From Betaproteobacteria bacterium (GTDB taxonomy: Bacteria > Pseudomonadota > Gammaproteobacteria > Burkholderiales > SG8-41), in the NCBI GenBank assembly GCA_025363575.1, contig JANYDM010000188.1:1-41101 (forward strand): DNA of 41,101 bases. Reading direction: 5' to 3'. The notes beneath the pieces are model-generated. The model searched no databases and had not been told where the DNA came from. It saw only the letters and a program-made list of their open reading frames with translations. Below, in pieces: positions 12,899 to 41,101 of this stretch. Numbering within the stretch: the first letter of the stretch is position 1; each line of letters starts with the position of its first letter. A program made the translations under genes and the position numbers.

Positions 12899-13322
12899 AA
12901 AATCGCACCAGGGCAGTTGTTTTTGCGGGGCGGTCGAGTTCACCGTGAGCGGCGAGCCGGCGGGCATGGGTTACTGCCACTGTGAGTCGTGCCGCAGCTG
13001 GGCGGCGGCGCCGGTCAACGCCTTCACGTTGTGGCAACCCGCAGCGGTGAAAGTCACGCGCGGCGCAGAGAAAATCGGCACTTACAACAAGACGCCGCAC
13101 AGCTATCGCAAGTGGTGCAAGACCTGCGGCGGCCACATTTTCACGGAGCATCCAGGCCTCGGACTTATCGACGTCTACGCGGCGTCCATCCCCGGATTTC
13201 AGCACCAGCCGGGCGTCCACGTGAATTACCAGGAAACCGTGTTGCATATGCACGACGGATTGCCCAAGATGCGCGATATGCCAAAGGAGATGGGCGGCTC
13301 GGGCATAGTCGTCACGGAATAG
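12888..13322 (+). CDS. GFA-family (formaldehyde-activating-enzyme-like) zinc protein
   Basis: A 144-residue cytoplasmic protein of the GFA/CENP-V fold. The zinc-binding cysteines are in place: C11 and C13 (GSCFCGAVEF), C30, C32 and C35 (YCHCESCR) and C77 and C80 (WCKTCGGH). The family is named for a Paracoccus glutathione-formaldehyde protein, but most members have no proven activity and may act on thiol adducts. AAGGA lies about 8 bases upstream of the ATG. It sits in the mddA cluster, where a thiol- or formaldehyde-linked role would make sense; this is inference. Confidence 0.9.
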   Translation: MSNEKSHQGSCFCGAVEFTVSGEPAGMGYCHCESCRSWAAAPVNAFTLWQPAAVKVTRGAEKIGTYNKTPHSYRKWCKTCGGHIFTEHPGLGLIDVYAASIPGFQHQPGVHVNYQETVLHMHDGLPKMRDMPKEMGGSGIVVTE

Positions 13323-13361
13323 CGCGTGCCCGAATAACCGCGAATAATCGTTAGGGCAAAC

Positions 13362-13931
13362 ATGAAAGCTGCGTTCATCGTATTCGACGGCATGACGGCG
13401 CTGGACTTCATCGGCTTCTACGACCCGCTCACGCGGCTGAAGTCGATGAACATCATGCCCGCATTCGAATGGCGCATCTGCGCAATGACGCCCTACGTCA
13501 ACGACGACCGCGGGCTGCGTTTTGCCGCCAACACCGCGCACGAGCCGCTCGATGCGTACGACATGATCGTGGTGCCGGGCGGCTTCGGCACGCGCAAGCT
13601 CCAGCACGACGCGGGGTTCATCGCATGGCTCAAGACCGCGCAGCGCGCGACGCTCAAGGCATCGGTCTGTACTGGCGCGCTGCTGCTCGGCGCGGCGGGT
13701 TTTCTGCAGGGCCGGCGCGCAACGACGCATCCTAATGCCTACAAGGAGCTCGCACCTTATTGCGCGGCCGTCGTGAAGGAACGCGTCGTCGATGACGGCG
13801 ACATCGTCACCGCGCGCGGCGTCTCGTCCGCCATCGACCTGGGGCTGCATCTCGTGCAGCGATTTGCCGGCGAGGAAGCGCGGGCGCGGGTCGCTGCGCA
13901 GATGGACTACCCGTACCAGTGGAAAATGTAA
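13362..13931 (+). CDS. DJ-1/PfpI-family protein
   Basis: A 189-residue DJ-1/ThiJ/PfpI-fold protein. The nucleophile is Cys103 in KASVCTGALLLGAAG, and the N-terminal acidic block is FDGMTALDFIGFYDPL, with a Asp rather than Glu arrangement closest to the isonitrile-hydratase/InhA-like branch. A late HP-NAYKEL segment supplies the histidine region. There is no DNA-binding domain, unlike the FtrA/GlxA regulators. It ends the plus-strand cluster, 39 bases after GFA, and converges on the ParB-like gene. Possible roles are glyoxalase/hydratase chemistry or stress protection; substrate unknown. Confidence 0.9.
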   Translation: MKAAFIVFDGMTALDFIGFYDPLTRLKSMNIMPAFEWRICAMTPYVNDDRGLRFAANTAHEPLDAYDMIVVPGGFGTRKLQHDAGFIAWLKTAQRATLKASVCTGALLLGAAGFLQGRRATTHPNAYKELAPYCAAVVKERVVDDGDIVTARGVSSAIDLGLHLVQRFAGEEARARVAAQMDYPYQWKM

Positions 13932-13937
13932 GGCGAA

Positions 13938-14921
13938 TTACTCGTCCGCCGCGCCGCCGGTCGCGACGATGTCTTCCTGCTTGATCTTCTCGACGTTGAA
14001 CTTCGCCGCGCGCTCGCGCATGGTCTTGAACACTTCTTCGAGCGGCGGCGGCTCGCCCTGGATCCAGCGCAGCGGATTGATGCGGGCAACCACGAACGCG
14101 CGCAGGTACGGGCTCATGAAACCGCGAGCCTTGAGCTTCGCGATGACCGCGGCGACCTGCTCATCGAGGTCCATCAGCATCGCCGCGTGTTTTTCGTGCA
14201 CCTTGATCGCCTGCGCGATCGGCGCGTCCGAAAATTCTTCGAGCCGGCGCACGATGGGATTGTAAGCGCCGCCCGCGAACTTGCCGTTCTTCTCGTAGCA
14301 GATGCCCAGCGTCACCAGCGACGCTTCCTCGAGATAGAACGCGAACCCGTTTTCCGCGCGCTTCGAATCTTCGTCGAGCAATCCGCGGTAGATGCGGATC
14401 ACCTCGAGCGACTTCTCGCGCAAGTTGTGCGCCTTCTCGGTGTTGAGCGCGAGTATCTGCCAGGCGATTTCGCGTTTCGGCACGATGAGCGCCGTGATGG
14501 ATTTCGCGCCCAGCCGGCGCATGGCTGCCAGCCGGTGCATGCCGTTCGGCGTCCAGAAACCCTGCTCCGGCGCGGTCACCGCGATCAGCGGGTCGAGAAA
14601 AAATCCCGTGCGGTCGATGACGTCGGCGAGTTTCTTGTGGTGCGTCGGCGACAGATCGCGCTGGAATGGCGTCGGCTCGATCGCGTCTATGGGCAGGATT
14701 GCCATCAATAACGCGTTTTTGCCGAGCGGGTCGGCATAAGCACCGATGATGACGCCGCCCGCTTCTTCGACGCGCCTGCGCGCCGCGGCGGCTTCCGCGG
14801 GCAGCTCGTCAAGCCGGCAGTCTTCCGGTGTGTATCCGCGCGAGCGCGCCGCGGCTTTTTTGGCGCGTTTTTTCGCGGGCTTGCGCTTCAGCAGGGATTT
14901 GCGAGGTTTGGCAGCGGCCAT
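13938..14921 (-). CDS. orphan ParB-N-domain (ParB/Srx fold) protein
   Basis: A 327-residue protein. Residues 1-30 form a Lys/Arg/Ala tail like a histone H1 tail. A ParB/sulfiredoxin-fold domain follows, with IEPTPFQRDLSPTHHKKLADVI (80-101), FLDPLIAV, and the NGMHRLAAMRRLGAKSITALIV block (124-145), which corresponds to the CTP/nucleotide-binding GxxR-type motif of ParB. The rest is helical, without a recognisable ParB HTH. There is no ParA neighbour and it does not look like the chromosomal ParB, so a segregation role is unlikely. The basic tail suggests nucleic-acid binding. Function unknown. Confidence 0.82.
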   Translation of the reverse strand: MAAAKPRKSLLKRKPAKKRAKKAAARSRGYTPEDCRLDELPAEAAAARRRVEEAGGVIIGAYADPLGKNALLMAILPIDAIEPTPFQRDLSPTHHKKLADVIDRTGFFLDPLIAVTAPEQGFWTPNGMHRLAAMRRLGAKSITALIVPKREIAWQILALNTEKAHNLREKSLEVIRIYRGLLDEDSKRAENGFAFYLEEASLVTLGICYEKNGKFAGGAYNPIVRRLEEFSDAPIAQAIKVHEKHAAMLMDLDEQVAAVIAKLKARGFMSPYLRAFVVARINPLRWIQGEPPPLEEVFKTMRERAAKFNVEKIKQEDIVATGGAADE

Positions 14922-14975
14922 AAGCAGCGATCATCGCCGATAGGCGGCAAGCATGTAAAGCCAACGCCGATTCGG

Positions 14976-14989
14976 ATAACATCGGTTAT
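14976..14989. promoter_or_regulatory. dyad ATAAC-ATCG-GTTAT upstream of cytochrome b561
   Basis: A perfect 5-base inverted repeat with a 4-base spacer lies between the divergent ParB-like and cytochrome b genes, 30 bases before the latter. It is a possible operator or part of a -10 region; short enough to be chance. Confidence 0.25.
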
Positions 14990-15019
14990 TGAACGACGTC
15001 CATGACCGGAGAAACAGTG

Positions 15020-15565
15020 ATGAGTGAAGACGCTACCAGCACGCCGTTTTGGAAGTACAGCCCGCCGGCAGTGGCCCTGCACTGGCTCCTCGCACTGTTA
15101 ATCGCGGGCCTGTTCGGTTTGGGCTGGTACATGATGCAGATCGAACGACAGCCGGGCGCCGACTGGTACTTCAACCTGCACCGGTCGCTTGGCCTCACCG
15201 TGGCTGGCCTGGTCGTAATGCGCATCGTATGGCGCTGGTCGCATTCGCCCGAAGCATTGCCCGCCGGCGTTCCGGCGTGGGAGAAAACGCTGTCGCTTGC
15301 GGCGCACTGGTTGCTATATGCATGCATGGTCGTGATGCCGCTGACAGGCTATCTCGGTTCTGCCTACAACAAGAGCGGCGTGGCATTCTTCGGCGTTCCG
15401 CTGCCAGTGTGGGCCGCACCCAGCCGCGATTTGTCGAAACTTTTTTTCACCATCCACGAGGCTCTGGTGTGGGTGTTCGTTGCGGTCATCGTGCTGCACG
15501 CGCTAGCGGGTCTTAAGCACCTGGTCGTTGACAAAGACACAGTGTTCCATCGCATGTGGTTCTAG
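15020..15565 (+). CDS. cytochrome b561 (CybB-type)
   Basis: A 181-residue inner-membrane dihaem cytochrome b with four helices. Histidines at 21 (ALHWLLALL), 54 (NLHRSLGLT), 96 (AAHWLLYAC), 146 (TIHEALVW) and 160 (VLHALAGL) match the spacing of CybB-type cytochromes; E. coli CybB is a superoxide:ubiquinone oxidoreductase. ATG at 15020 is chosen over the in-frame ATG at 15002 because GGAGA at 15008-15012 is 7 bases upstream of it. It stands alone between the ParB-like and phosphoesterase genes. Its redox partner is unknown. Confidence 0.93.
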   Translation: MSEDATSTPFWKYSPPAVALHWLLALLIAGLFGLGWYMMQIERQPGADWYFNLHRSLGLTVAGLVVMRIVWRWSHSPEALPAGVPAWEKTLSLAAHWLLYACMVVMPLTGYLGSAYNKSGVAFFGVPLPVWAAPSRDLSKLFFTIHEALVWVFVAVIVLHALAGLKHLVVDKDTVFHRMWF

Positions 15566-17636: not shown

Positions 17637-20600
17637 TCAATGCGTTTTCGGAACGCCGTCTTCCCGCGCCGCGACGCGGCTGCGCATCAGGCGCTCGCGC
17701 GGCGTTTCGGTGCGCAGCCATGGCCGCGGGTTCTGCGTGACGGAGCGGCGCGACAGCAACGCATGCAGGCTTTCGTCCGCGAGTTCCGACGCCCCGAGGC
17801 GGCGCACTGCGCCGCCTTCGAGCGCGGCGATGGCAACGCCGTCGCGGAACAGGATGCGGTTGCGCGCTATTGCGGGGACACGCGCGTCGGGCGTCAGGAT
17901 GCCGACGAGATTGAGCGGGTCAGCGCCGCTCAAAGCGACGAGTGCGCCGCTCTTCTCTGTCTTGCGCACTGAGCGCAGGCGCCCCACCGCATCGGCCGCC
18001 GCGAACTGCTCGCCGCCGAAGCCGGCGACGAAACGGCCGCCGCGGATCTCTCCGCGCGCCTCGAGCCGGCGATACACCATCACGAGTTCGCGCCATGGCG
18101 GCAGCCCCGATTCGCGCGCGAGCAATGAGCGAAACACCACGCCGTAGCGTGCGAGCAGCGCGCGCGCGATCGGCTCCACGCGCTCGTCAGGCTCGATGCT
18201 GTCGCCCCCCAGCAACGCCCAGCGTCCCGCCGTATCGACGCCATACATCGAAGCGCGGCGCCCGCTGCGGCCCGACAGGTTCTTGCGCTTTTCGGGCGGC
18301 GTCAGCAGCGCGCGCAATCCGCTGAAGCTGTCGGCCGTCACAAGCCCGGCGCCCGCGAGCTCGCCGAGCGCGCGCTCGACCAGCGTCGGCAGCAGCCGCG
18401 TCGCGGCGACCATCTCGTGGAAAAACGATGCGCCGCGCGCGCGCAGGACTTCGAGCACCGCGCACGCTTCGGAAGTCAGCATGCTGGTATCGGCCTGTGC
18501 CGCCGTGCGCCACAGACCCGCATGTTCGCGCAGCATCAGCGCGATGGGCGAGCTGCGCAGCGGCGCCTTGCCGGCGCTTTCCATCGGTGTCAGGCGTCCC
18601 CATGCAACGCGGCCCGACAAACACAACGTATCGATGTGCCCGGTGTCGTAATCGCGCACGCGCGCCGGCAGCACGTGGTTTTCCCATGCGCTGGCCGCGA
18701 CTTCATAGCCGTCGAGCTGCTCGATGACGGCGGCCAGGCCGTCGACGCCGGCCACCTGCTGGTCGGCGGCGGCATGCTGCCAGTGCAGCAGAAAGCGCAT
18801 GAAATCCGCCGCGGTCGCCGGCTCGATTTCGGCGCGCAGGCGGTTCAGCGTGTAGCGATGGATGCGCGCGAGCAGCCGGCGGTCGCACCACTCGAGCGGC
18901 GGCGCGGCGCCAGCCGCAGCATTGAAATAGCCGCGCAGCACGCGGCCTTCGGTCTCGAGCGCGAGCAGCGCGCCGTCGATGGCCGCGGTATCCGCCATGT
19001 TCAAATCGCCGGCAAGCAGCCCTGCCGTCACCGGGCCCAGCACGTCCATGCGGCTGCGCGTGAGTTCGCGCATTGCGTCCTCAGTCGTCCAGGGTCTGCG
19101 CAGACGCTCGGGGATCACGGGCTGCGTTTTCTGCGCGACAACCGCATTGAATTCGTCGAAGCGCTCGACCGCGATCCAGAATCCGTCCGCATCGAAAGCG
19201 CGCCCGGCGGCGACCAGTTGGCCGAACAGCGCAGGCCACGCGGCCTCGTCCGCAGTGAGCTCGTCGCGGCGGATAAAGCCGGTGAGCTGCAGCGCGTCGT
19301 GCAATTCGTCGGTTGTTTCAGCCGAGGGCCACGCTTCTTCGCGCACGCGTTCGATGGCCGCCGGGTCGAGCGCACCGAGATCGTCGGCATTGCGCGGCTC
19401 GCTCGCGCGCCGCGTGTAAACCGCGCGCGTGCGGCGCTCTTCGAGCGGCGCGTCGTCGAGGAACGTATACACGGCCGAATTCAGCAATTCATGGCAGAAC
19501 ACCGACGGCTCCGGCGTGTCCCTGGCGAGACAGGTCACTTCACCGTCGTAGATGCGCTTGAGCGCCGCGATGAGCTGCGGCAGATCCATCGCCTCTTCGA
19601 GCGCATCGCGCATCGCCTGGTCGACCAGCGGATGGCAAGGGATTTCGCGCGCGCCCTGGATATTCTCGAAGCAGGCCTTGGCATCGGGGAACACGCCGGC
19701 GAGCAGGTCTTCGGCGATCATGCGCTGGATCTGCGCGGGCATGCGCGTGCCGTTGCGCATGCGCGGCACGGCGAGCGCCAGCGTGGTCGTCCAGCGCCAG
19801 CGCGTTTCGAAGATTGGCGAATCGAGCACTGCCTGCACCAGCGTCTCCTTGACGGTGTTCGGATGCAGATAGCGGAACACTTCGAGCAGCGGAAACGAAT
19901 GCGATGGGCCGAGCGACAGGATGATGCCCTCCTCGGTCGCCGCTGCCTGCAGCTCGAAATTGAAGCTCTGGCAAAACTTCTTGCGCAGCGCGAGCCCCCA
20001 TGCGCGGTTCACGCGGCTGCCGAACGGCGCGTGAAGCACGAGCTGCATGCCGCCCGATTCGTCGAAAAACCGCTCGAACATCAGCGTGTCTTTCGACGGC
20101 ACGACGCCGAGTGCGCGCTTGCCTTCGGCGAGATAAGCCGCGATCTGCTCCGCGGCGGAACGCGCCAGCGCGTAATCCCCCATCAGCCATGCGATCGCCG
20201 CGTCGAGCTCGCTTTCGACACGCGGCACATCCGGCGCGGGCAGCCTGGCGTCCGCGCCCGCGCGCAGCCGCGATACTGCCGTGCTCATTTCGTCGCTGCG
20301 CGCCGGCGCTTCGCCGAGCCAGAACGGCATCGTCGGCGGCTGCCCCTTGGCGTCGGCCACGCGCACGACGCCGCTGCCGATGCGCAGGATGCGCCACGAC
20401 GTGTTGCCGAGCTGAAAAATATCGCCCGGCAGCGATTCGATCGCAAAATCTTCATTGAGCGTGCCGACATAGGTTCCCTCGGGCTCGAGCACCACGCGGT
20501 AATCGAAGACTTCGGGTATCGCGCCGCCGGACATGATCGCCGTCATGCGCGAGCCGGCGCGGCTGCGTATCTTGCGGTTGACCGCGTCGTGATGGATGAG

Positions 20601-22022
20601 CGCGCCGCGCTGGCCGCGCTTGGTCGTGAAGCCGCCGGCGAGCATCTTCACGACGGCGTCGAACTCATCGCGGGCGAGATCGCGATAGGGATAGGCGTTT
20701 CGCGTAAACGCATACAGTGCGTCCTCGTCCCACTCCTCCGCGCCGGCTTCGGCCACGATCTGCTGTGCAAGCACGTCCACCGGGTTGTCGGGCACGTGTA
20801 TACGGTCGAGCTCGCCGTCCGCGACCGCGCGCACCATGGCCGCGCATTCGATGAGATCGTCGCGCGTCAGCGGGAATACGCGTCCCTTGGGCGTGCCGCT
20901 GACCGTGTGGCCGGATCGCCCAACGCGCTGCAGCAGCGTCGCGATGCGATTGGGCGACGAAATCTGGCACACGAGGTCGACATGCCCGATGTCGATGCCG
21001 AGCTCGAGCGAAGCGGTTGCGACCAGCACTTTCAACCCGCCTTCGCGCAGGCGCTCTTCGGCGGCGAGCCGGGCCTCCTTCGCGAGGCTGCCGTGGTGCG
21101 CGGCAACGTGCTCATCGCCGAGCAGCTCGCTCAATTTATGCGCCATGCGTTCCGCCAGTCGCCGCGTGTTCACCATGATCAGCGTAGTGCGGTGCTCGGC
21201 GATGAGCGCGACGAGACGGTTGTAGATCTCCTGCCACACCTCGGCCGACATCACTGCCTCGAGCTGCGAGCCCGGGACTTCGACCGCCAGATCGATTTTG
21301 CGCTTGTGTCCGCGGTCGACAATGACGCAATCGCCGGGCGTCTGCATGCCGACGAGGAAGCGCGCGACTTCCTCGATCGGATTTTGCGTCGCCGACAGGC
21401 CGATGCGCTGCAGGCGGCGCCCGCAAACATGGTCGAGCCGCTCGAGCGACAGCGCGAGATGGGCGCCGCGGCGCGACTCGAGCAGCGCGTGAATCTCGTC
21501 GACAATGACGATCTGCGCGGTGCGCAGCATTTCGCGCGAGCGCTCGGCCGTCAGCAGCAAGTACAGCGATTCCGGCGTAGTGACGAGGATGTGCGGCGGC
21601 GTTTTCAGCATGGCCGCGCGCTCTTTTTGCGGCGTATCGCCGCTGCGCACCGCGGCGGTCACGCGCACCGGCGGGTAGCCGGCGTCTTCGGCGATGCGGC
21701 GGATCTCGCGGCGCGGTTCGGCGAGGTTTTTGTGGATATCGGCCGACAGCGCTTTCAGCGGCGACACGTAGATCACGCGCACTTCGTCGGGCAGGCCGCC
21801 GCGCTCGAGACCTTCGCGCAGCAGTTGATCGATGGCGGTCAGAAATGCGGCAAGCGTCTTGCCGGAACCCGTCGGCGCCGCGATCAGCGTGTGCGCGCCG
21901 CCTCGTATCGCGCGCCAGCCTTCGGCCTGCGCCGGTGTCGGCGGCAGTACCGTGCCGTCGGGCGCGGCAAAGCGCGCGTCCCACCACGCGCGCAATACGG
22001 GATGAAAATCTGGAGGAAGCAT
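17637..22022 (-). CDS. lhr: Lhr-family superfamily 2 helicase (long form)
   Basis: A 1461-residue DEAD/DEAH helicase, close to the length of E. coli Lhr (about 1540). Visible motifs are Walker A A49-PTGSGKT56, TTPESLYLLL (motif Ic area), DEIH at 175-178 (motif II), SATQNP (motif III), ASLELGIDIGHVDLV and QRVGRSGH (motifs V and VI). The long C-terminal half carries the Lhr winged-helix and Lhr-CTD region. Lhr proteins are ATP-dependent 3'-5' DNA/RNA helicases linked to repair; the bacterial CTD is an unusual HTH_42-like fold. It is not next to a ligase or nuclease here. The frame is intact throughout. Confidence 0.95.
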   Translation of the reverse strand: MLPPDFHPVLRAWWDARFAAPDGTVLPPTPAQAEGWRAIRGGAHTLIAAPTGSGKTLAAFLTAIDQLLREGLERGGLPDEVRVIYVSPLKALSADIHKNLAEPRREIRRIAEDAGYPPVRVTAAVRSGDTPQKERAAMLKTPPHILVTTPESLYLLLTAERSREMLRTAQIVIVDEIHALLESRRGAHLALSLERLDHVCGRRLQRIGLSATQNPIEEVARFLVGMQTPGDCVIVDRGHKRKIDLAVEVPGSQLEAVMSAEVWQEIYNRLVALIAEHRTTLIMVNTRRLAERMAHKLSELLGDEHVAAHHGSLAKEARLAAEERLREGGLKVLVATASLELGIDIGHVDLVCQISSPNRIATLLQRVGRSGHTVSGTPKGRVFPLTRDDLIECAAMVRAVADGELDRIHVPDNPVDVLAQQIVAEAGAEEWDEDALYAFTRNAYPYRDLARDEFDAVVKMLAGGFTTKRGQRGALIHHDAVNRKIRSRAGSRMTAIMSGGAIPEVFDYRVVLEPEGTYVGTLNEDFAIESLPGDIFQLGNTSWRILRIGSGVVRVADAKGQPPTMPFWLGEAPARSDEMSTAVSRLRAGADARLPAPDVPRVESELDAAIAWLMGDYALARSAAEQIAAYLAEGKRALGVVPSKDTLMFERFFDESGGMQLVLHAPFGSRVNRAWGLALRKKFCQSFNFELQAAATEEGIILSLGPSHSFPLLEVFRYLHPNTVKETLVQAVLDSPIFETRWRWTTTLALAVPRMRNGTRMPAQIQRMIAEDLLAGVFPDAKACFENIQGAREIPCHPLVDQAMRDALEEAMDLPQLIAALKRIYDGEVTCLARDTPEPSVFCHELLNSAVYTFLDDAPLEERRTRAVYTRRASEPRNADDLGALDPAAIERVREEAWPSAETTDELHDALQLTGFIRRDELTADEAAWPALFGQLVAAGRAFDADGFWIAVERFDEFNAVVAQKTQPVIPERLRRPWTTEDAMRELTRSRMDVLGPVTAGLLAGDLNMADTAAIDGALLALETEGRVLRGYFNAAAGAAPPLEWCDRRLLARIHRYTLNRLRAEIEPATAADFMRFLLHWQHAAADQQVAGVDGLAAVIEQLDGYEVAASAWENHVLPARVRDYDTGHIDTLCLSGRVAWGRLTPMESAGKAPLRSSPIALMLREHAGLWRTAAQADTSMLTSEACAVLEVLRARGASFFHEMVAATRLLPTLVERALGELAGAGLVTADSFSGLRALLTPPEKRKNLSGRSGRRASMYGVDTAGRWALLGGDSIEPDERVEPIARALLARYGVVFRSLLARESGLPPWRELVMVYRRLEARGEIRGGRFVAGFGGEQFAAADAVGRLRSVRKTEKSGALVALSGADPLNLVGILTPDARVPAIARNRILFRDGVAIAALEGGAVRRLGASELADESLHALLSRRSVTQNPRPWLRTETPRERLMRSRVAAREDGVPKTH

Positions 22023-28195: not shown

Positions 28196-29164
28196 ATGAG
28201 AGGACATCCCGCATTAACGATCCTGTTCGCGCTCGCGACGCACGCCATGACAGGCGCGGCGGCGGCACAAGATTACCCGGCGCGGCCGGTGCGCATCGTC
28301 GTCGCGTTTCCCGCCGGCGGCGGCAATGACATCATCGCGCGCTTTTTTTCCACGCGCCTTACGCCGCGCCTCGGCCAGCAGATCGTGATCGACAACCGCG
28401 GCGGCGCGAGCGGCATCATCGGCACCGACATCGTCGCGCGCGCGGCACCCGACGGTTACACGCTGCTGTTCACGTCGTTGACGCACTCGATGAACGAGGC
28501 GATCACCAAGCTGCCGTACGACACGCTGAAGTCGTTCGCACCGGTGGCCATGCTGGGCCGCGGCACCAACGTGCTGGTGGTCAGTCCGGCCTTGCCCGTG
28601 CGCACGCTGCCGGAGTTCATCGCGCTGGCGAAAGCGAAGCCGGGAAAGATCAACTACGCTTCGACTGGCGTCGCGGGCATGCATCATTTCGGCGGCGAGA
28701 TGTTCAAGCGCGCGGCCGGCATCGACATCACGCATGTGCCCTTCAAGGGCGGCGGTCCGGCGCAGATAGCCGTCATGGCAGGCGAAGTCGACATGATGTT
28801 CTCGACACTGCCGCTCGCGCTGCCGCACATCCGCACCGGACGCCTGCGCCCGCTCGCCGTCGGCAGCACGACGCGTTCGCCGCTGCTGCCGGAATTGCCG
28901 ACGCTGAATGAAAGCGGCGCGCCGGGTTACGAATTCACGGTATTCTGGGGCATCGTTGCGCCCACCGCCGCACCGGCAGCCGTCGTCCGGCGGCTCAACG
29001 CGGAGTTCAATACGATACTGTCGGATCCCGAAGCCGCGAAACAGCTCGCGACCGAAGGCGCTGAAGTCACGGTTTGGACGCCCGCCCAGTTCGGCAGGCT
29101 GCTTGCCGACAACGTAGCGTTGTGGAAGCGCGTGGCGCGCGATTCCAATATCCGCGCCGAATAG
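28196..29164 (+). CDS. Bug/TctC-family periplasmic substrate-binding protein
   Basis: A 322-residue Bug receptor with a signal peptide ending AAA-QDYP, followed by RPVRIVVAFPAGGGNDIIAR, DNRGGASGIIGTDIVARAA, PDGYTLLFTSLTHSMN, LPYDTLKSFAPVAML, PALPVRTLPEFIALAKAKPG, HVPFKGGGPAQIAVMAGEVDMMF and ELPTLNESGAPGY. The next Bug gene begins at the base after its stop, so the two are certainly co-transcribed and probably translationally coupled. Together with the dioxygenase at 30182 it forms the second Bug-Bug-TauD module of the window. Ligand unknown. Confidence 0.93.
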   Translation: MRGHPALTILFALATHAMTGAAAAQDYPARPVRIVVAFPAGGGNDIIARFFSTRLTPRLGQQIVIDNRGGASGIIGTDIVARAAPDGYTLLFTSLTHSMNEAITKLPYDTLKSFAPVAMLGRGTNVLVVSPALPVRTLPEFIALAKAKPGKINYASTGVAGMHHFGGEMFKRAAGIDITHVPFKGGGPAQIAVMAGEVDMMFSTLPLALPHIRTGRLRPLAVGSTTRSPLLPELPTLNESGAPGYEFTVFWGIVAPTAAPAAVVRRLNAEFNTILSDPEAAKQLATEGAEVTVWTPAQFGRLLADNVALWKRVARDSNIRAE

Positions 29165-30127
29165 ATGCAATGCGCTTTTCTCGCATTTGCCGGCGCCGCC
29201 ATGGCGATCGCATTGCCATGCGCGGCCCAGCAGTATCCGTTCAAGCCCATCCGCATCATCAATACGACATCCGCGGGCGGCCCGGCCGAATTGACCGCGC
29301 GCCTGATCGGACAGCGATTTACGGAAGCGTGGGGTCAGCAGGTCGTCGTCGATAACCGCACCGGCGCCGGCGGACTCATAGGCGCCGAACTGGTAGCGCG
29401 CGCGGCGCCCGACGGCTATACCCTGCTGCTCGGCTCCGGCTCGTCGATGGTCATCGCGCCGCAGTTGCAGACAACGCCTGCGTACGATGCGCTGCGCGAT
29501 TTCGCGCCGGTCGGCATCGTCGTCATGGCGCCGTTCGTGCTGGTCGTTCATCCGTCCGTGCCGGCGAAGACAGTGCCGGAACTCGTGGCGGCGGCGAAAG
29601 CGCGCCCGGGTTTCTACAATTTCGCCTCGGCCGGCACCGGCAGCACCGCGCATCTGGGGGCTGAGCAACTGAAGATGCTCGCCGGCATCGACATCCGGCA
29701 CGTACCGTATAAAGGCGCGCTGCCGGCGGCCGCCGATCTCGCCGCAGGCCAGGTGCAGATACTTTTCAACAGCATGGCCACTGCATTGCCGCATGTGAAT
29801 TCGGGTCGCATCACGCTGGTTGCAACCGGCGCCGCCGCGCGCTCACCGCTGATTCCTGACACGCCCACTATCGCCGAGACCTATCCCGGTTTCGAAGTAG
29901 TGACGTGGTACAGCATCGCCGCGCCGGCCCGGACACCGCGCGCGCTGGTGCTGAAATTGAACGGTGAAATCGCGCGCGCGCTTGCCAACCCCGATATGAT
30001 CGCGCGCTTTTCCGGGCTTGGACTCGATCCCCATCCAACCACGCCTGACGAGATGGCGGACTACCTCAAAAGCGAGATTGCAAAATGGGGCAAAGTCATC
30101 CGCGCCGCTGGCGTCAAGGCGGACTGA
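29165..30127 (+). CDS. Bug/TctC-family periplasmic substrate-binding protein
   Basis: A 320-residue Bug receptor. The ATG directly abuts the preceding TAG, with no room for a separate leader. The signal peptide ends CAA-QQYP; then KPIRIINTTSAGGPAELTAR, DNRTGAGGLIGAELVARAA, PDGYTLLLGSG, AYDALRDFAPVGIV, HPSVPAKTVPELVAAAKARPG, HVPYKGALPAAADLAAGQV and DTPTIAETYPGF. The first loop, TSAGGPAE, differs from the usual PxGGGxD, so the ligand may differ from that of its partner. The dioxygenase gene follows after 54 bases. Confidence 0.93.
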   Translation: MQCAFLAFAGAAMAIALPCAAQQYPFKPIRIINTTSAGGPAELTARLIGQRFTEAWGQQVVVDNRTGAGGLIGAELVARAAPDGYTLLLGSGSSMVIAPQLQTTPAYDALRDFAPVGIVVMAPFVLVVHPSVPAKTVPELVAAAKARPGFYNFASAGTGSTAHLGAEQLKMLAGIDIRHVPYKGALPAAADLAAGQVQILFNSMATALPHVNSGRITLVATGAAARSPLIPDTPTIAETYPGFEVVTWYSIAAPARTPRALVLKLNGEIARALANPDMIARFSGLGLDPHPTTPDEMADYLKSEIAKWGKVIRAAGVKAD

Positions 30128-31764: not shown

Positions 31765-31905
31765 ATCGGCTCGCAGGTGTGATACCGTACCGAACTGCAA
31801 TCCCGGTTGATTTACGGGATTTACGGCGCCGCGGAACCCGCCGGCCCGCCAAACCCGGCATCGAAACTTTTCCACCGCGTCGCTGCACATTTAAGAGAAG
31901 CCGCC

Positions 31906-33759
31906 TTGCTCAATTCACTGCTCAAATACAAAAACCAGCTCAAGATTGCCGCTGTCATGCTGGCATTCGCCGCCTCCATCGCCCTGGTCTGGTTTACCGT
32001 CAACACCCCGGAACTGGGCAAGAACCCGCTCGTGACCGCGATGGAAAAAAACTCGGCGCTGTTTTTCGCAACCGAGCGGGACATCACGGCTCTCGCGCAT
32101 GATGCCGAGTCGGGCGCGGCCGCCAGCATCGGCCTGTCCATGGACTACGCGCTGGTCACACTCAAGGACGGCGGCCATTACTACGTGCGCATCGAAACGC
32201 AGCGCAACCTGATCATGGAACTCTTGAAAGACAAGTTAGCGCCCGCTGCGCCGGCTGTGTTCTCGCTGACCAACATCAAGCCGCCGGCGCCGCCGCTGAC
32301 GGCCTTCACGCGTTCGCTCGACCCGGGCTATCTCGCGCTGCTCGGCCCGCTGCTGATCCTCTTTCTGATCCTGCAGATGAATCCGTTGCGCGGCGGCAGC
32401 ATGTTCAAGAACGCCGACAAGCCGAACACGCGTTTTCGCGACGTCGTCGGCGTCGATGAAGCCAAGGAGGCGCTGCAGGACATCGTCGCTTACCTGAGAA
32501 AGCCGCGCAAATTCTCCGAACTGGGCGCGAAACCGCCCAAAGGCGTCGTGCTCGAAGGCCATTTCGGTTCGGGCAAAACGCTGCTCGCGCGCGCCGTCGC
32601 CGGCGAGGCGGGGGTGCCCTTCATCAGCATCTCGGGCAGCGACTTCAGCGATATGTTTCTGGGCGTCGGCGTGCGCCGCGTGAAAAAACTGTTCGCGCAC
32701 GCGCGCAGCCAGGCGCCGTGCGTGATTTTCATCGACGAGATAGACGGACTCGGCAAGCGCTCCGGCGGCAGTTCCTCGGGCGAAACCGAGAACAATCGCA
32801 TCATCAATACGCTGCTGGTAGAGCTCGATGGCTTTTCGCCGACTTCAGGCATCGTAGTGCTCGGCGCCACCAACAACGTCGACAACCTCGATCCGGCGCT
32901 CATCCGGCCGGGCCGTTTCGACCGCACCTGTCATTTGGGGCTGCCGAATGTAGACGAGCGCGACGCGCTGTTCGCGGCCTACGCCGCCCATCTCCGCACC
33001 GACGGCGACACCGATTTCAGGCAGCTCGCGCGCGTCTCGTCCGGGTTGTCACCCGCCTCGATTGCCAACGTGGTCAACTCCGCGGCACTGTTAGCGGCGA
33101 AGGAAGACGCAGTTGCCGTGACTAACGAACATTTCCGGCGCACGCTCGAACAGCATTTGATGGGCGGTGCCACGGCGGCAGGACAAGCGGCACTAAGCGC
33201 TGCGGAGCGCGAACGCATCGCAGTGCATGAAGCCGGCCACGCTGTGATCGCCAGGCTGCTGGACGTTGGCATCGTAGAAAAAGTCAGCATCCTCAAGCGC
33301 GGCCGCGCACTGGGCGTGACGCTGGTGACCAACGAGCACGACCTGACTCTACAAAGCGAACCGGAGCTCCGCGCGCGCATGACCATGCTGCTTGGCGGAC
33401 GCGGCGCGGAAGCGCTCGTCCTGAAAACCGCTTCGACCGGCGCCGCCAACGATCTCGAGCACGTATCGAGCATGGCTTACCGCATGGTCACCGAGTTCGG
33501 CTTCAGCCGGACCATCGGCCCCTTCAGCTACGCGGGCCTGCCGGAACGCGCGCGCCAGTTCGGCGGCCATCCGGAAGCAGTGGCTGAAGCGCGCGATATC
33601 ATCAAGGACATCGAGAAGGAATGCGCCGAGTTGCTGACGATGCACCGTCACGCCCTCGACCGGCTGACGGCAGAACTTCTCGAGCATGAGACCGTGAGCG
33701 GCCAAGTCGTCGACGCGTGCCTCAAGACCGCCGGGACGGCGCCAGCCCTGGCTGCCTAG
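31906..33759 (+). CDS. FtsH-like membrane AAA+ zinc protease, divergent Walker A
   Basis: About 617 residues, a little shorter than E. coli FtsH (644). Order: TM1 about 12-31, periplasmic domain 32-138, TM2 about 140-158, AAA+ domain from 175, peptidase domain from 430. Walker A reads G218-H-F-G-S-G-K-T225 instead of GPPGTGKT; Walker B is VIFIDEID (273-280), pore phenylalanine F251 (MFLGVGVRR), arginine finger RPGRFDR (334-340). The zinc motif is HEAGH (441-445) and the third ligand Asp516 (GAAND), so it should be an active protease. TTG at 31906 is preferred: AAGAGAAG lies 5 bases upstream and TM1 follows at once; an in-frame TTG at 31807 would add 33 odd residues. It is a paralogue, not the housekeeping ftsH, which normally sits beside rrmJ/ftsJ. 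Confidence 0.9.
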   Translation: MLNSLLKYKNQLKIAAVMLAFAASIALVWFTVNTPELGKNPLVTAMEKNSALFFATERDITALAHDAESGAAASIGLSMDYALVTLKDGGHYYVRIETQRNLIMELLKDKLAPAAPAVFSLTNIKPPAPPLTAFTRSLDPGYLALLGPLLILFLILQMNPLRGGSMFKNADKPNTRFRDVVGVDEAKEALQDIVAYLRKPRKFSELGAKPPKGVVLEGHFGSGKTLLARAVAGEAGVPFISISGSDFSDMFLGVGVRRVKKLFAHARSQAPCVIFIDEIDGLGKRSGGSSSGETENNRIINTLLVELDGFSPTSGIVVLGATNNVDNLDPALIRPGRFDRTCHLGLPNVDERDALFAAYAAHLRTDGDTDFRQLARVSSGLSPASIANVVNSAALLAAKEDAVAVTNEHFRRTLEQHLMGGATAAGQAALSAAERERIAVHEAGHAVIARLLDVGIVEKVSILKRGRALGVTLVTNEHDLTLQSEPELRARMTMLLGGRGAEALVLKTASTGAANDLEHVSSMAYRMVTEFGFSRTIGPFSYAGLPERARQFGGHPEAVAEARDIIKDIEKECAELLTMHRHALDRLTAELLEHETVSGQVVDACLKTAGTAPALAA

Positions 33760-37539: not shown

Positions 37540-38520
37540 ATGACAACGTTCCTGGCCGGTCGCATGGTGTTCTGCGCCGCGCTCGTCGTGCATGGCGTAA
37601 GTGATGCGGCGGCCGCCGGGCAAATCTTTCCTGCGCGCGCTGTCCGCGTGATCGTGACGACGTCGCCCGGCGGCGGCGCCGACATCACCATGCGCACCGT
37701 CGGGCAAAAGCTCACGGAAATGTGGGGCCAGCCCATCGTGGTGGACAACCGCACCGGCGGCAGCGGCGTCATCGGCCTCGAAATCGCCGCCAAGTCGCCG
37801 CCCGATGGCCACACGCTCGTGTTGATTACTGCCGGACATACCGGCCACGCCGTCATCCGCTCCAACCTGCCGTACGATTTGCTGCGCGATTTCGCGCCCG
37901 TCACCGAAATGGTCACGACGTACTACCTGCTGCTCGTCCATCCTTCGCTCGGCGTCAACTCGGTGCAGGAGCTCGTCGCGCTGGCGCGCAGCAAGCCGGG
38001 CGCATTCACTTACGGCTCGACCGGCACCGGGCAGACTAATCATCTTTCATGGGTGCAGTTCGCGTCCGCCACCAAAATGGAATTGGTCCACGTGCCTTAT
38101 AAGGGCACGGGCCAGTCGCTGGCCGAACTGCTCGCGGGCCATATCCACATGGCTTTCGCCACGCCGCTCGAGGCGATTCCTTACGCGCAGGCCGGTAAGG
38201 TGCGCGCACTGGCGGTGACTTCCGCAAAGCGCTCACCGGCGATGTCTGACCTGCCGACGATCGCCGAATCCGGTGTGCCCGGCTACGATGCGAGCGGCTG
38301 GTACGGTCTGGTCGCGCCGGCTGCGACGCCGCGCGCGACTGTCGCCATCCTGAACACCGCATTGGTCCGCGTGCTGCGCTCGCCCGAAATCGTCGAGCGT
38401 TTCGCGAAAAGCGGCATCGATACCGTGGGCTCGACGCCGGACGAATTTCGCGCGCACATGCAGGCTGAAACCATCCGCTGGCAGCGGCTGGCGAAAATCG
38501 CGGGAATCCAGAAGCAGTAG
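37540..38520 (+). CDS. Bug/TctC-family periplasmic substrate-binding protein
   Basis: A 326-residue Bug receptor with a signal peptide ending near AAAA-GQIFP. Blocks: ARAVRVIVTTSPGGGADITMR, DNRTGGSGVIGLEIAAKSP, PDGHTLVLITAGHTG, LPYDLLRDFAPVTEM, HPSLGVNSVQELVALARSKPG, HVPYKGTGQSLAELLAGHIHM and DLPTIAESGVPGY. It starts at ATG 37540. AAGGAG at 37515 is 19 bases upstream, too far to act well, so initiation may be weak or coupled to the crotonase gene. It is the last of eight Bug genes in the window. Confidence 0.92.
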   Translation: MTTFLAGRMVFCAALVVHGVSDAAAAGQIFPARAVRVIVTTSPGGGADITMRTVGQKLTEMWGQPIVVDNRTGGSGVIGLEIAAKSPPDGHTLVLITAGHTGHAVIRSNLPYDLLRDFAPVTEMVTTYYLLLVHPSLGVNSVQELVALARSKPGAFTYGSTGTGQTNHLSWVQFASATKMELVHVPYKGTGQSLAELLAGHIHMAFATPLEAIPYAQAGKVRALAVTSAKRSPAMSDLPTIAESGVPGYDASGWYGLVAPAATPRATVAILNTALVRVLRSPEIVERFAKSGIDTVGSTPDEFRAHMQAETIRWQRLAKIAGIQKQ

Positions 38521-38606: not shown

Positions 38607-39071
38607 ATGTACATTGCGCTGCTCATTGTTCACGGCCTGCTGGCGGTCGCACTGCTCGGCGCGATCACGCACCAGGCCGCGAGCGCGTGGCTGCCGTCGC
38701 GCAAGCCCGCCAATTCTTTCGGCGAAAGATTCCGCGCGGTCGGCGCCGGCAACTACGCCAATGCGATCGTCGTGCTCTACGTATGCACGATGCTGCTTGG
38801 CGCCATCATCTATCCTGAATTCCGCGTTTCCATCCGCGGCGTGCTCGAAGAGCTCGACGTGCCGGCCGTGATGGGATCGTTTGAGCTGAAAGAACATTTC
38901 GCGGTGGTGGGTCTCGCTATCCTGCCCGCCTATTGGTGTTTCTGGCGTGCGCCGCTTGCCGCGGAACACGGCCGCACGCGCAACGTGTTGACGGCCCTTC
39001 TAGCGTTCATCGTCTGGTGGAATTTTCTCGTCGGCCATGTCGTGAACAATTTCCGCGGATACGGCGCATGA
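38607..39071 (+). CDS. four-helix membrane protein with intramembrane histidines
   Basis: A 154-residue protein with four hydrophobic helices (about 1-22, 52-70, 97-113, 126-146). Histidines H9, H97 and H144 lie in or at the ends of helices 1, 3 and 4, and H22 follows helix 1; such placement is typical of haem-b-binding four-helix proteins, though no family is recognised. It has an AAAT-CCAG leader before ATG 38607 with GGGGGAAA nearby. Stop and next start overlap (ATGA). Haem binding is inference. Confidence 0.8.
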   Translation: MYIALLIVHGLLAVALLGAITHQAASAWLPSRKPANSFGERFRAVGAGNYANAIVVLYVCTMLLGAIIYPEFRVSIRGVLEELDVPAVMGSFELKEHFAVVGLAILPAYWCFWRAPLAAEHGRTRNVLTALLAFIVWWNFLVGHVVNNFRGYGA

Positions 39072-39406
39072 AAAACGAGCGATCGTTGGCATTTCTCGCC
39101 GTCATCTTTGCGGTGGTCTACGCGGTCGTCTACGTGCTCGCGGTCTGGAAGAACATCGCGCTGTTCACCTATCATCCCGTCACCGGCGCGCTGGCGCCCG
39201 GCGTCGAGAAGCCGCACGAAGGTCCTGCGATGTACTGGTACGGCTGGATGGCCACGGCCGCGCTTGCAGCCTTCGCCGCGTGCGGCCTCGCGTGGCTGCT
39301 GCCCGCGCGCGTGCGACAACAGATATGGTCCGGCTGGGCATGGCTGGCACCCATCGGTGTGCTGTTGTTTTTCGTTTACCTGCTGCGCGGTTATTTTCTG
39401 CGCTGA
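39068..39406 (+). CDS. three-helix membrane protein of unknown function
   Basis: A 112-residue protein translationally coupled to the preceding gene by ATGA. Helices at about 8-27, 54-79 and 88-109; the loop TYHPVTGALAPGVEKPHEGP carries His and many Pro/Gly and would face the periplasm, judged from the positive-inside pattern (MKNER at the start, RVRQQ later). No family recognised. With the 154-residue protein it may form a membrane complex. Confidence 0.78.
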   Translation: MKNERSLAFLAVIFAVVYAVVYVLAVWKNIALFTYHPVTGALAPGVEKPHEGPAMYWYGWMATAALAAFAACGLAWLLPARVRQQIWSGWAWLAPIGVLLFFVYLLRGYFLR

Positions 39407-39436
39407 CCGCGTCGCACGATTGCAAGGAGCTTCCCC

Positions 39437-39820
39437 GTGAAAAAAATACAATTCACTCTCGTCTGGATCTTCGCGTGCTACGTTTTCCCGGCAGCAACGG
39501 CGCACGCTGCTGGCGAAATGGGCGATGCCAAGCACGCGGACGAAGGCATCCGTTTCTTCGGCTTCGTTAAAGACGCCAACGGCAAGCCGCTGGTAGAGGC
39601 GAAAGTCACCGCGCAAATCAAGAACGGCATCAAGTACGTGACGCACACCGCCAAGAACGGCATGTATTCGTTCGGCGGTTTCGCCAAAGCCATCAAGCCG
39701 GACGACGTCGCAATTTCATGCGAGCTCGAAAAATTCAAGCAGGCCAAGGTCATTCGCAAGACGCCCGCCGGCAAAACGGTCAAGTCGGTCGAGACCGAAT
39801 GCCGGATGCAGGCCGGCTGA
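39437..39820 (+). CDS. secreted carboxypeptidase-regulatory-like (Ig-like) protein
   Basis: A 127-residue precursor. The signal peptide MKKIQFTLVWIFACYVFPAA is followed by cleavage near AHA-AGE. The rest resembles one CarboxypepD_reg/transthyretin-like beta domain: FFGFVKDANGKPLVEAKVTAQIK, THTAKNGMYSFGGFAKAIKP and ISCELEKFKQAKV. Such domains bind or scaffold partners rather than catalyse. AAGGAG is 8 bases before the ATG. It precedes a larger protein with a related domain. Confidence 0.82.
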   Translation: MKKIQFTLVWIFACYVFPAATAHAAGEMGDAKHADEGIRFFGFVKDANGKPLVEAKVTAQIKNGIKYVTHTAKNGMYSFGGFAKAIKPDDVAISCELEKFKQAKVIRKTPAGKTVKSVETECRMQAG

Positions 39821-39832
39821 CGGCCGGGCGTC

Positions 39833-41101
39833 ATGCGCGCGCGCATGCGCATTAAAGTTGCCGCGACGTGCGCTGCGTTCCTGCTGCTGGCGGGTTTCGA
39901 CGCCACAAGCGCGGAACCGCCCGCCTCCAATTTAGCCGGACAAGTCAGCTCGTCCACTGAGGGCGCGATGGAAGGCGTGCTCGTCAGCGCGCGCAAAGAC
40001 GGCTCGAACATCACGCATACCGTCGTCACCGATGCGAAAGGCCGTTACGATTTTGCGCCGGCGCGCCTCACCACCGGACACTATGCGTTGTCGGTACGCG
40101 CCGCCGGCTTCGAGCTCGCGGGCGCCGCCGCGGCCGACGTACCGGCGCAGGGCGCGGCCCGGCTGGACTTGAAATTAAGCAAGACGCGCGACCTCGCCGC
40201 GCAGCTCACCAATACCGACTGGTTCATCAGCATGCCGGGCAACGCCGAGCAAAAGCGCCCGCTGATCGAATGCATGAGCTGCCACACATTCGAGCGCATC
40301 GCGCGCAGCAAGCACGGTGCGGCTGCGATGTACGAGGTTTTAAAACGCATGGCGACCTATGCGATCAACACCACCCCGGACAAAAAGCAGTATCGCGCCA
40401 AGCCGCGGCCCTTCAACGAGGCCACGTTTCGCGGGCTCGCCGCCTACCTGGCATCGATCAATCTCTCCAAAGGCGCCACGTGGTCGTATCCGCTGAAGAC
40501 GCTGCCGCGCCCGCGCGGTGCCGCCACGCGCGTGCTCGTGACGGAGTACGACCTGCCGCGCAAGACCATCGCGCCGCACGACGTGGTGACCGATGCGGCG
40601 GGCATCGCGTGGTACTCGAACTTCCTGGAAAACACGCTGGGGCGCGTCGACCCGCGCACCGGCACGCATGCGGAATTCACGTGGCCGACGATCAAGAAAG
40701 GCGCGGCGGAAGGATCGCTCGCGATGGAGCCCGACCGCGATGGCAACTGGTGGCTCGCCACCATGTTCCAGACCGGGCTGGTCCGCTTCAACATCAAGAA
40801 CAATACGTTCACGGTATTCCCGCTGCCGGCGGAGCTCAACAACAGCGAAGCCCAGCAGTCCATGGTCCAGCCGCGTCAGTCGCACGTCGACGGCAAGGTC
40901 TGGTCCACCGACATCGGCCGCCAGGTCATCCTGCGGCTCGACATCGCGAGCGGCAAGTACGAAACCATCGATCCGTTCATCTACATGCTGGAAGGCAGCA
41001 ACCATTCGCCCTACGGGCTCGTCGCCGACGACAAAAACAATCTCTTCTTGATGGATTTCGGCGACGAAGTCATCGCGCGCATGGACGCGAAAACGCTGCA
41101 G
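39833..41101 (+). CDS. carboxypeptidase-regulatory domain + CxxCH + Vgb-like propeller protein, 3' part missing
   Basis: An open frame of 423 codons from ATG 39833 runs without a stop to the window end. Signal peptide about 1-27 (AAFLLLAGFDATSA), regulatory-like beta domain about 35-115, then a cytochrome-c-type haem motif C147-M-S-C-H151 in a helical region with RPFNEATFRGLAAYLASI, then from about 215 a repeat pattern GxVDPRTGTxxEFTWPT, GNWWLATMFQTGLVRFNIKNN, GKVWSTDIGRQVILRLD, NNLFLMDFGDEVIARMD typical of the Vgb/streptogramin-lyase seven-blade propeller. So it should be a periplasmic or surface cytochrome-propeller fusion. It starts 12 bases after the preceding stop. The CxxCH may bind covalent haem; a candidate distal ligand is not settled. 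Confidence 0.85.
   Translation, partial: MRARMRIKVAATCAAFLLLAGFDATSAEPPASNLAGQVSSSTEGAMEGVLVSARKDGSNITHTVVTDAKGRYDFAPARLTTGHYALSVRAAGFELAGAAAADVPAQGAARLDLKLSKTRDLAAQLTNTDWFISMPGNAEQKRPLIECMSCHTFERIARSKHGAAAMYEVLKRMATYAINTTPDKKQYRAKPRPFNEATFRGLAAYLASINLSKGATWSYPLKTLPRPRGAATRVLVTEYDLPRKTIAPHDVVTDAAGIAWYSNFLENTLGRVDPRTGTHAEFTWPTIKKGAAEGSLAMEPDRDGNWWLATMFQTGLVRFNIKNNTFTVFPLPAELNNSEAQQSMVQPRQSHVDGKVWSTDIGRQVILRLDIASGKYETIDPFIYMLEGSNHSPYGLVADDKNNLFLMDFGDEVIARMDAKTLQ

Follow-up and report, generated by a model that had tools for sequence, protein, structure and literature searches.

An unnamed pair of small membrane proteins as a possible electron-transfer module for exported enzymes

Four adjacent genes, here called P1 to P4, lie at the right-hand end of a stretch of 41,101 nucleotides from a Betaproteobacteria bacterium (assembly GCA_025363575.1, contig JANYDM010000188.1, positions 1 to 41,101), which is referred to below as the window. 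P1 and P2 encode two small membrane proteins, P3 a small exported protein, and P4 a larger protein in which a CarboxypepD_reg domain and a CxxCH motif stand in front of a propeller resembling Vgb. P1-P2 is a membrane block that swaps exported partners and is not bound to one enzyme. The explanation that we favour, at a probability just short of one half (about 0.48), is that P1 and P2 are the two subunits of a small, unnamed module of the b-haem/quinone kind that sits in the inner membrane and transfers electrons for exported enzymes. We favour it because P1 carries invariant histidines within its helices, because their end of the bundle is probably periplasmic, because proteins with a haem-c motif are in excess among the neighbours, because P4 is linked to P1 at the level of whole genomes, and because flavin and copper oxidases occur among the partners. 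An earlier, sequence-only reading of the window had taken the four genes as one redox system, an interpretation that is partly supported: the block has several exported partners besides P4, so the four genes are not one fixed system.

Conservation and pairing of P1 and P2

A search at E ≤ 0.001 yielded 459 homologues of P2 and 3506 of P1, the latter in a database whose entries are clustered at 90% identity. All 120 of the P1 matches listed are annotated as hypothetical proteins, and none of them carries a Pfam domain. The P1 and P2 of the window matched no Pfam family at E ≤ 1, and scans of 81 P1 and 79 P2 members returned scattered weak matches, the best among those listed having E values of 0.003 and 0.0011, respectively. 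NCBIfam offered no name for P1 and none for the P2 of the window, the one P2 protein scanned. Neither protein matched a PDB sequence, and nothing on a P1-P2 module was found in listings of openly licensed PMC papers.

A contig scan with the P1 alignment turned up 157 loci. The best 80 were kept; going by record titles, most of these come from metagenome-assembled genomes. By tblastn, P2 adjoins P1 in 78 of these 80. The contig of L038 stops just past P1 and L056 has a P2 recognised by clustering, so that the pairing holds in 79 of 79 testable loci. The two genes share a 4-base overlap in 55 of 78 loci, with starts set by script, and tblastn places P3 in 48 of the 80. Two loci (L041:9986-11700 and L054:7255-8980) carry the pair twice in tandem, as P1-P2-P1-P2, following a histidine-kinase gene; in L041 a response regulator precedes the doubled pair and a TonB receptor comes after it.

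The P1 alignment comprises 81 rows with identities to the window protein down to 41%. His9 is kept in all 81, 79 of them in aligned rows and two (L022 and L023) recovered in frame, where the alignment gap arose because the start codon had been mis-set and the histidine is present upstream. His22 is found in 81 of 81 and His144 in 80 of 81. Position 97 is occupied by histidine in 60 rows, glutamine in 19 and asparagine in 2, so that conservation of the P1 histidines, on which the earlier proposal leaned, is borne out at positions 9, 22 and 144 and only in part at 97. K95 and E96 are present in every row, and R73, R77, E93, N147, N148 and R150 are almost invariant; the motifs GAxTHQ, KE(H/Q) and GHxxNNxRG emerge from the family's own alignment. 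In P2 (79 rows), Y22 is invariant and P37, P53, W57 and G59 are near-invariant.

Predicted structure and topology

The AlphaFold2 model of P1 is made up of four long helices (predicted local distance difference test, pLDDT, 92), and that of P2 consists of three long helices and a hairpin (pLDDT 93). The histidines of P1 fall in three of the predicted helices, as the sequence-only reading had it: H9 and H22 in helix 2-28, H97 in helix 86-113 and H144 in helix 119-153. Mean-field couplings, run on 200 sequences with an effective number (Meff) of 78 and without a shuffled control, link A99 with N139, F72 with E93, L12 with T61, T61 with V142 and I20 with A133. The helix registers derived from them set H97 about one turn deeper than H9 and place H22 at the opposite side of the membrane; H9 and H144 come out at the same depth because of the couplings I20-A133, L12-T61 and T61-V142. 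Judged by loop charge, the H9/H144 end lies outside in 58 rows and inside in 3, with 20 ties among the 81, which suggests that this end is probably on the periplasmic side. The P1 model gave no significant Foldseek match, and its VIA matches were generic helical bundles.

Partners of the P1-P2 block

The immediate neighbourhood, defined as same-strand genes within 250 bases of the block, holds 107 genes across the 80 loci. The largest classes are Amidohydro_3 (22), P4-short (18), NMT1-type binding protein (10) and P4-long (8), followed by an unnamed 415-residue CxxCH protein (6), a small cytochrome c (6), metallophosphoesterase (4), histidine kinase (4), TonB receptor (3), flavin adenine dinucleotide (FAD) amine oxidase (2) and multicopper oxidase (1); the remaining types occur once or twice. 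The amidohydrolase, phosphoesterase, amine oxidase, multicopper oxidase and cytochrome c were named through Pfam on one representative each, the phosphoesterase representative, like that of P4-long, matching under the cut-off only, and the binding protein, histidine kinase and TonB receptor were named by eye. No Pfam family was found for the representatives of the 415-residue and 199-residue CxxCH proteins. A CxxCH motif is present in 39 of the 107 neighbours as against 47 of the 799 other genes of the loci, and a signal-like N-terminus, by a permissive home-made rule, in 84 of 107 as against 395 of 799. In 46 of the 80 loci, P1 has an open reading frame (ORF) with CxxCH no more than 5 kb away.

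On a midpoint-rooted P1 tree, in which 20 of 81 rows have no partner label, the labels change 10 times over 7 types; the minimum is 6 and the shuffled mean 29.9. Amidohydrolase, phosphoesterase and kinase/TonB labels are clustered, and those of the amine oxidase and the 415-residue protein are not. The phosphoesterase clade (4 rows, support 99) is nested in a group of 10 rows (support 91); the remaining 6, that of the window included, carry P4-short.

Some of these partners have features of their own. The unnamed exported protein of 415-435 residues (L044:9217-10464 and L079:11158-12465), which adjoins the block in 6 loci, has one CxxCH near its C-terminus, and its L044 member matched neither a Pfam family nor a PDB sequence. 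The Tat-like exported metallophosphoesterase (L022:8563-9957 and L025:8596-9969) is bound to one P1 clade; it is barely detected by Pfam (E 0.0098 for L025) and has no PDB match. A small CxxCH protein of about 168-199 residues lies near the block in L020 (5468-6067), L198, L201, L205 and L206, accompanied in L020, L205 and L206 by an NMT1-type binding protein; the L020 protein has no Pfam match.

P4, P3 and co-occurrence across genomes

P4 has the three-part build that the sequence-only reading gave it. The CarboxypepD_reg domain (PF13620) scores 47.2 bits, above the cut-off of 32.3, and is preceded by an N-terminus that looks signal-like by sequence; it is followed by the motif CMSCH and by a propeller that scores 41.4 bits against Vgb (PF24684, cut-off 50) in a frame that is incomplete at the window end. 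The repeats of the propeller can be aligned with Vgb in several registers, and its best PDB matches are 2qc5, 2z2p and 2z2n. At least 4140 homologues were found at E ≤ 0.001 among the 7997 scored candidates that share most words with P4, and PF24684 is the precomputed domain of the 120 listed. All 119 homologues examined (longer than 500 residues) contain CxxCH, as the earlier proposal of a cytochrome-propeller enzyme implied. In the numbering of the homologue P0251, propeller histidines 242, 272 and 384 are likewise found in 119 of 119, and M166, which is Met173 in the window and a candidate distal haem ligand judged by sequence, in 117 of 119. Among the frames of the loci, 33 of 38 P4-short and 25 of 25 P4-long have the motif, and some of those without it are fragments.

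Just downstream of P4, two of the relatives nearest to the window (L001:13082-15121 and L002 at about 13089-15155) carry another, distant P4-like gene of the CxxCH-propeller type, so one may also lie to the right of the window, beyond the sequence seen. Further P4-like genes stand on the opposite strand in L013, L031, L035 and L044.

P3 had been described as a secreted regulatory-like protein. It is indeed CarboxypepD_reg-like and exported, with a PF13620 score that falls under the Pfam cut-off (29.5 bits, E 9.7e-07). Cys95 is invariant and Cys122 is kept in at least 90% of 48 rows in an alignment that leaves out L008, cut by its contig.

The link between P1 and P4 was followed in 198 genomes of the family to which G002, a Bradyrhizobium and the source of L022, belongs. 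P1 is present in 29 of them (30 matches, one dropped at E 6.9e-4) and P4, at E ≤ 1e-50 with up to 7 candidates scored per genome, in 26. P1 accompanies P4 in 21 of these 26 genomes as against 8 of the 172 others (Fisher p 2e-17, uncorrected for kinship). In 5 of the 8 P1 genomes without a P4 call (G418, G456, G459, G519 and G590), P1 and a P4-long gene lie no more than 4.5 kb apart. Propellers with Vgb alone served as a yardstick: P1 occurs in 11 of 39 genomes that have them and in 18 of 159 others (p 0.01). The coincidence of P1 and P4 extends to genomes in which they lie on separate contigs, such as G416.

A further 31 stretches were taken, 28 of them from the G002 family, and 6 repeat earlier contigs. 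The 25 new loci comprise 22 from that family, two of these from one genome, and second copies in G001, G010 and G012. All 25 have P2 and 22 have P3. A P4-type gene is found no more than 4.5 kb away in 15, in one case as a fragment where the contig stops, and 18 have a CxxCH ORF of some kind. Eight of the 25 show the order P4-long, P1, P2, P3, amidohydrolase, with a wide gap in L199. The order P1-P2-P3-P4-short also recurs, and in L200 there are P4 genes on both sides of the block. The four-gene co-occurrence of the sequence-only reading is thus upheld for P1 with P2 and, at genome level, for P1 with P4, and is partial for P3 and for nearby CxxCH genes.

Proposed mechanism

In the reading that we favour, the four-helix bundle of P1 would hold one b-type haem between His9 of helix 1 and His144 of helix 4, near the periplasmic face, with R73, R77, E93, K95, E96, N147, N148 and R150 at the same end, near the haem propionates. 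His22 and Gln23 at the opposite end would form a quinone or proton site. P2 would complete the membrane subunit in contact with P1 and present its hairpin, and the block so formed would dock exported enzymes and couple these with the quinone pool. Its partner in the window would be P4, a presumed catalyst in the periplasm that combines a single haem c, a Vgb-like propeller and a CarboxypepD_reg domain, and P3 would be an accessory; in other lineages the same block would serve different exported partners. Electrons would run from enzyme to quinone, a direction that is our guess. The opposite course, from membrane to propeller, had been put forward in the sequence-only reading and is not favoured over the reverse; the b-haem and the electron flow itself are things that we infer.

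Relation to known systems

SdhC-SdhD, NarI and FdnI are membrane b-haem/quinone anchor subunits of respiratory enzymes. P1-P2 resembles them as a set of small helical membrane subunits with conserved histidines in the helices, an adjoining redox-enzyme gene and a presumed quinone link. It is set apart, without one-by-one comparison, by having no PDB, Pfam or significant fold match and by its several partner families, hydrolases among them. In our reading, P1-P2 is a pair of unnamed families that acts like a respiratory membrane anchor, with no demonstrated membership of a known family.

HemJ, DUF2269 and CopD are membrane proteins with four-helix units, and HemJ is a b-haem protein. P1 is like HemJ (UPF0093, PF03653), DUF2269 (PF10027) and CopD (PF05425) in having a histidine in helix 1. 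Assignment to HemJ was rejected, as the window P1 has no Pfam match at E ≤ 1 and hhalign gave E 0.18 over 9 columns, with 0.15 for the reversed control. CopD was rejected on the same Pfam result and on hhalign (E 0.1; reversed control 0.088), which with its 8 CopD rows is a weak test. For DUF2269 the window P1 again has no Pfam match, and the hhalign value is no better than the reversed self-control.

The propeller of P4 resembles virginiamycin B (streptogramin) lyase, the Vgb of PF24684. Unlike Vgb, the P4 relatives are exported fusions of about 545 residues with CarboxypepD_reg and CxxCH in front of the propeller, and nothing points to action on streptogramins. Cytochrome cd1 and the quinohaemoprotein dehydrogenases are periplasmic propeller-cytochrome enzymes. 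P4 would share with them a haem-c domain fused to a β-propeller in the periplasm; by description it differs in the Vgb-type propeller, the CarboxypepD_reg domain in front and the unnamed membrane pair adjacent to it.

Weighing the alternatives

Several observations weigh against an electron-transfer module. Neither by sequence nor, at a significant level, by fold does P1-P2 match any known haem-b protein. P2 lacks an invariant histidine, H36 being present in just 43 of 79 rows, and its topology by loop charge is split 36 to 27 with 16 ties (79 rows). No CxxCH ORF lies within 5 kb in 34 of the 80 loci, several of which are on short contigs, and three of the frequent neighbour classes, Amidohydro_3, the NMT1-type protein and the metallophosphoesterase, are not known as redox proteins. 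Hydrolase partners are explained less well by the module, save where P4-long shares the cluster. The loci are related, and the neighbour counts and tests are therefore not independent. When P4 was used as query on 12 P1 genomes, it found no match in G003, G004, G011 and G012 and only a Vgb-like match in G002 and G006. The four negative genomes are those of the phosphoesterase (G003, G004), the amine oxidase (G011) and the histidine-kinase/TonB partners (G012); the query misses P4-long, which L061 of G011 does carry, 2.4 kb off on the other strand.

The gaps in CxxCH and the many hydrolase partners keep two other readings viable. P1-P2 could be a small two-subunit permease that moves the substrate or product of the adjoining exported enzyme through the inner membrane, its conserved His, Lys, Glu and Arg being transport residues. 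The exported hydrolases, NMT1-type binding proteins and TonB receptors make for an uptake-like neighbourhood, and all four phosphoesterase and all four histidine-kinase/TonB loci are among those without a nearby CxxCH ORF. We hold the permease to be unlikely, given the strong enrichment of CxxCH proteins, the genome-level company of P4, the common depth of H9 and H144 and the lack, in Pfam scans, of a convincing transporter-family match for P1 or P2. Alternatively, P1-P2, perhaps with P3, might serve in assembly or anchoring, keeping varied exported enzymes in place or bringing them to maturity while moving neither electrons nor solutes. Its partners do have export in common rather than chemistry, and their types follow the P1 tree far more closely than shuffled labels do; an anchor has no need of invariant histidines within its helices, and P1 is also found beside histidine-kinase genes (L030, L041, L054 and L059) and TonB receptors, which makes this account improbable too. 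Kinship with the HemJ/DUF2269/CopD proteins, with an action on porphyrin or copper, is very unlikely. DUF2269 is a weak Pfam match in 2 of 81 P1 members (best E 0.0052) and DUF420 in 1 of 81, the hhalign alignment with DUF2269 (E 0.013, probability 3%) brings helix 1 and its H9 into register, and the partner in L024 is a multicopper oxidase. The profile match is not significant, since P1 against its own reversed alignment scored better (E 0.002). The same test detects HemJ-DUF2269 (E 2e-07) and HemJ-CopD (E 5e-05); it misses DUF2269-CopD (E 0.11; 12 and 8 rows), so that missing P1 is no proof of non-kinship. That the four genes are chance neighbours without a joint function would fit the patchy presence of P3 and P4 and the change of neighbours by clade, and is most improbable in view of the P1-P2 pairing, repeated in the 25 further loci, the coincidence of P1 and P4 across contigs, the many homologues of P1, P2 and P4, and a gene order that recurs in relatives.

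A bolder form of the electron-transfer module would make P1-P2 a general, hitherto overlooked quinone-reactive b-haem docking unit of the inner membrane, unrelated to the known anchors, that takes haem-c propellers, flavin and multicopper oxidases and metallohydrolases alike. The Vgb-like haem propellers would then form a new class of periplasmic enzymes in respiration. We regard this wider claim as doubtful.

Gene layout in the window

The ORF coordinates and spacings of the sequence-only reading were confirmed from the ORF list and the sequence: P1 and P2 overlap by 4 bases (ATGA), 30 bases separate P2 from P3, and 12 separate P3 from P4. The portion of P4 that is seen has 423 residues. Upstream lie genes for TctC/Bug-type solute receptors at 28196-29164 and 37549-38520 (TctC by Pfam) and at 29165-30127 (alike by eye), the one at 37549-38520 ending 86 bases ahead of P1. 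The window also holds an FtsH-like gene (31807-33759; AAA and peptidase M41, 650 residues) and a large Lhr-type helicase (17637-22022), which is overlapped on the opposite strand by a probably spurious ORF of 1211 residues.

Table 1. Positions of P1 to P4 and of their main features in the window
Feature	Position	Strand	Description or basis
P1	38607..39071	+	ORF, 154 residues; four-helix integral membrane protein, unnamed family
P2	39068..39406	+	ORF, 112 residues; three predicted membrane helices and hairpin (FTYHP...GPAMYWYG), unnamed family
P3	39437..39820	+	ORF, 127 residues, GTG start; small exported protein, CarboxypepD_reg-like domain
P4	39833..41101	+	ORF open at window end; signal-like N-terminus, CarboxypepD_reg, CxxCH domain, Vgb-like propeller
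P1 His9 codon (helix 1)	38631..38633	+	Alignment, couplings; candidate haem ligand
P1 His22 codon (far end of helix 1)	38670..38672	+	Opposite membrane side; possible quinone/proton site
P1 His97 codon (helix 3)	38895..38897	+	Alignment
P1 His144 codon (helix 4)	39036..39038	+	Alignment, couplings; candidate second haem ligand
P4 CarboxypepD_reg domain, residues 34-115	39932..40177	+	Pfam
P4 CMSCH haem-c attachment motif, residues 147-151	40271..40285	+	Sequence motif
P4 Met173 codon (M166 in P0251)	40349..40351	+	Candidate distal haem ligand
P4 Vgb-like propeller start (from residue 236)	40538..41101	+	Pfam, PDB matches; cut by window end

Implications

The histidine pattern of P1 is directly amenable to spectroscopy. 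If P1-P2 is indeed a shared membrane partner, it would explain a set of genes now annotated as streptogramin lyase, virginiamycin B lyase or hypothetical protein. It would also add a new point of electron entry or exit to respiration, and would illustrate how existing membrane modules come to be combined with new enzymes.

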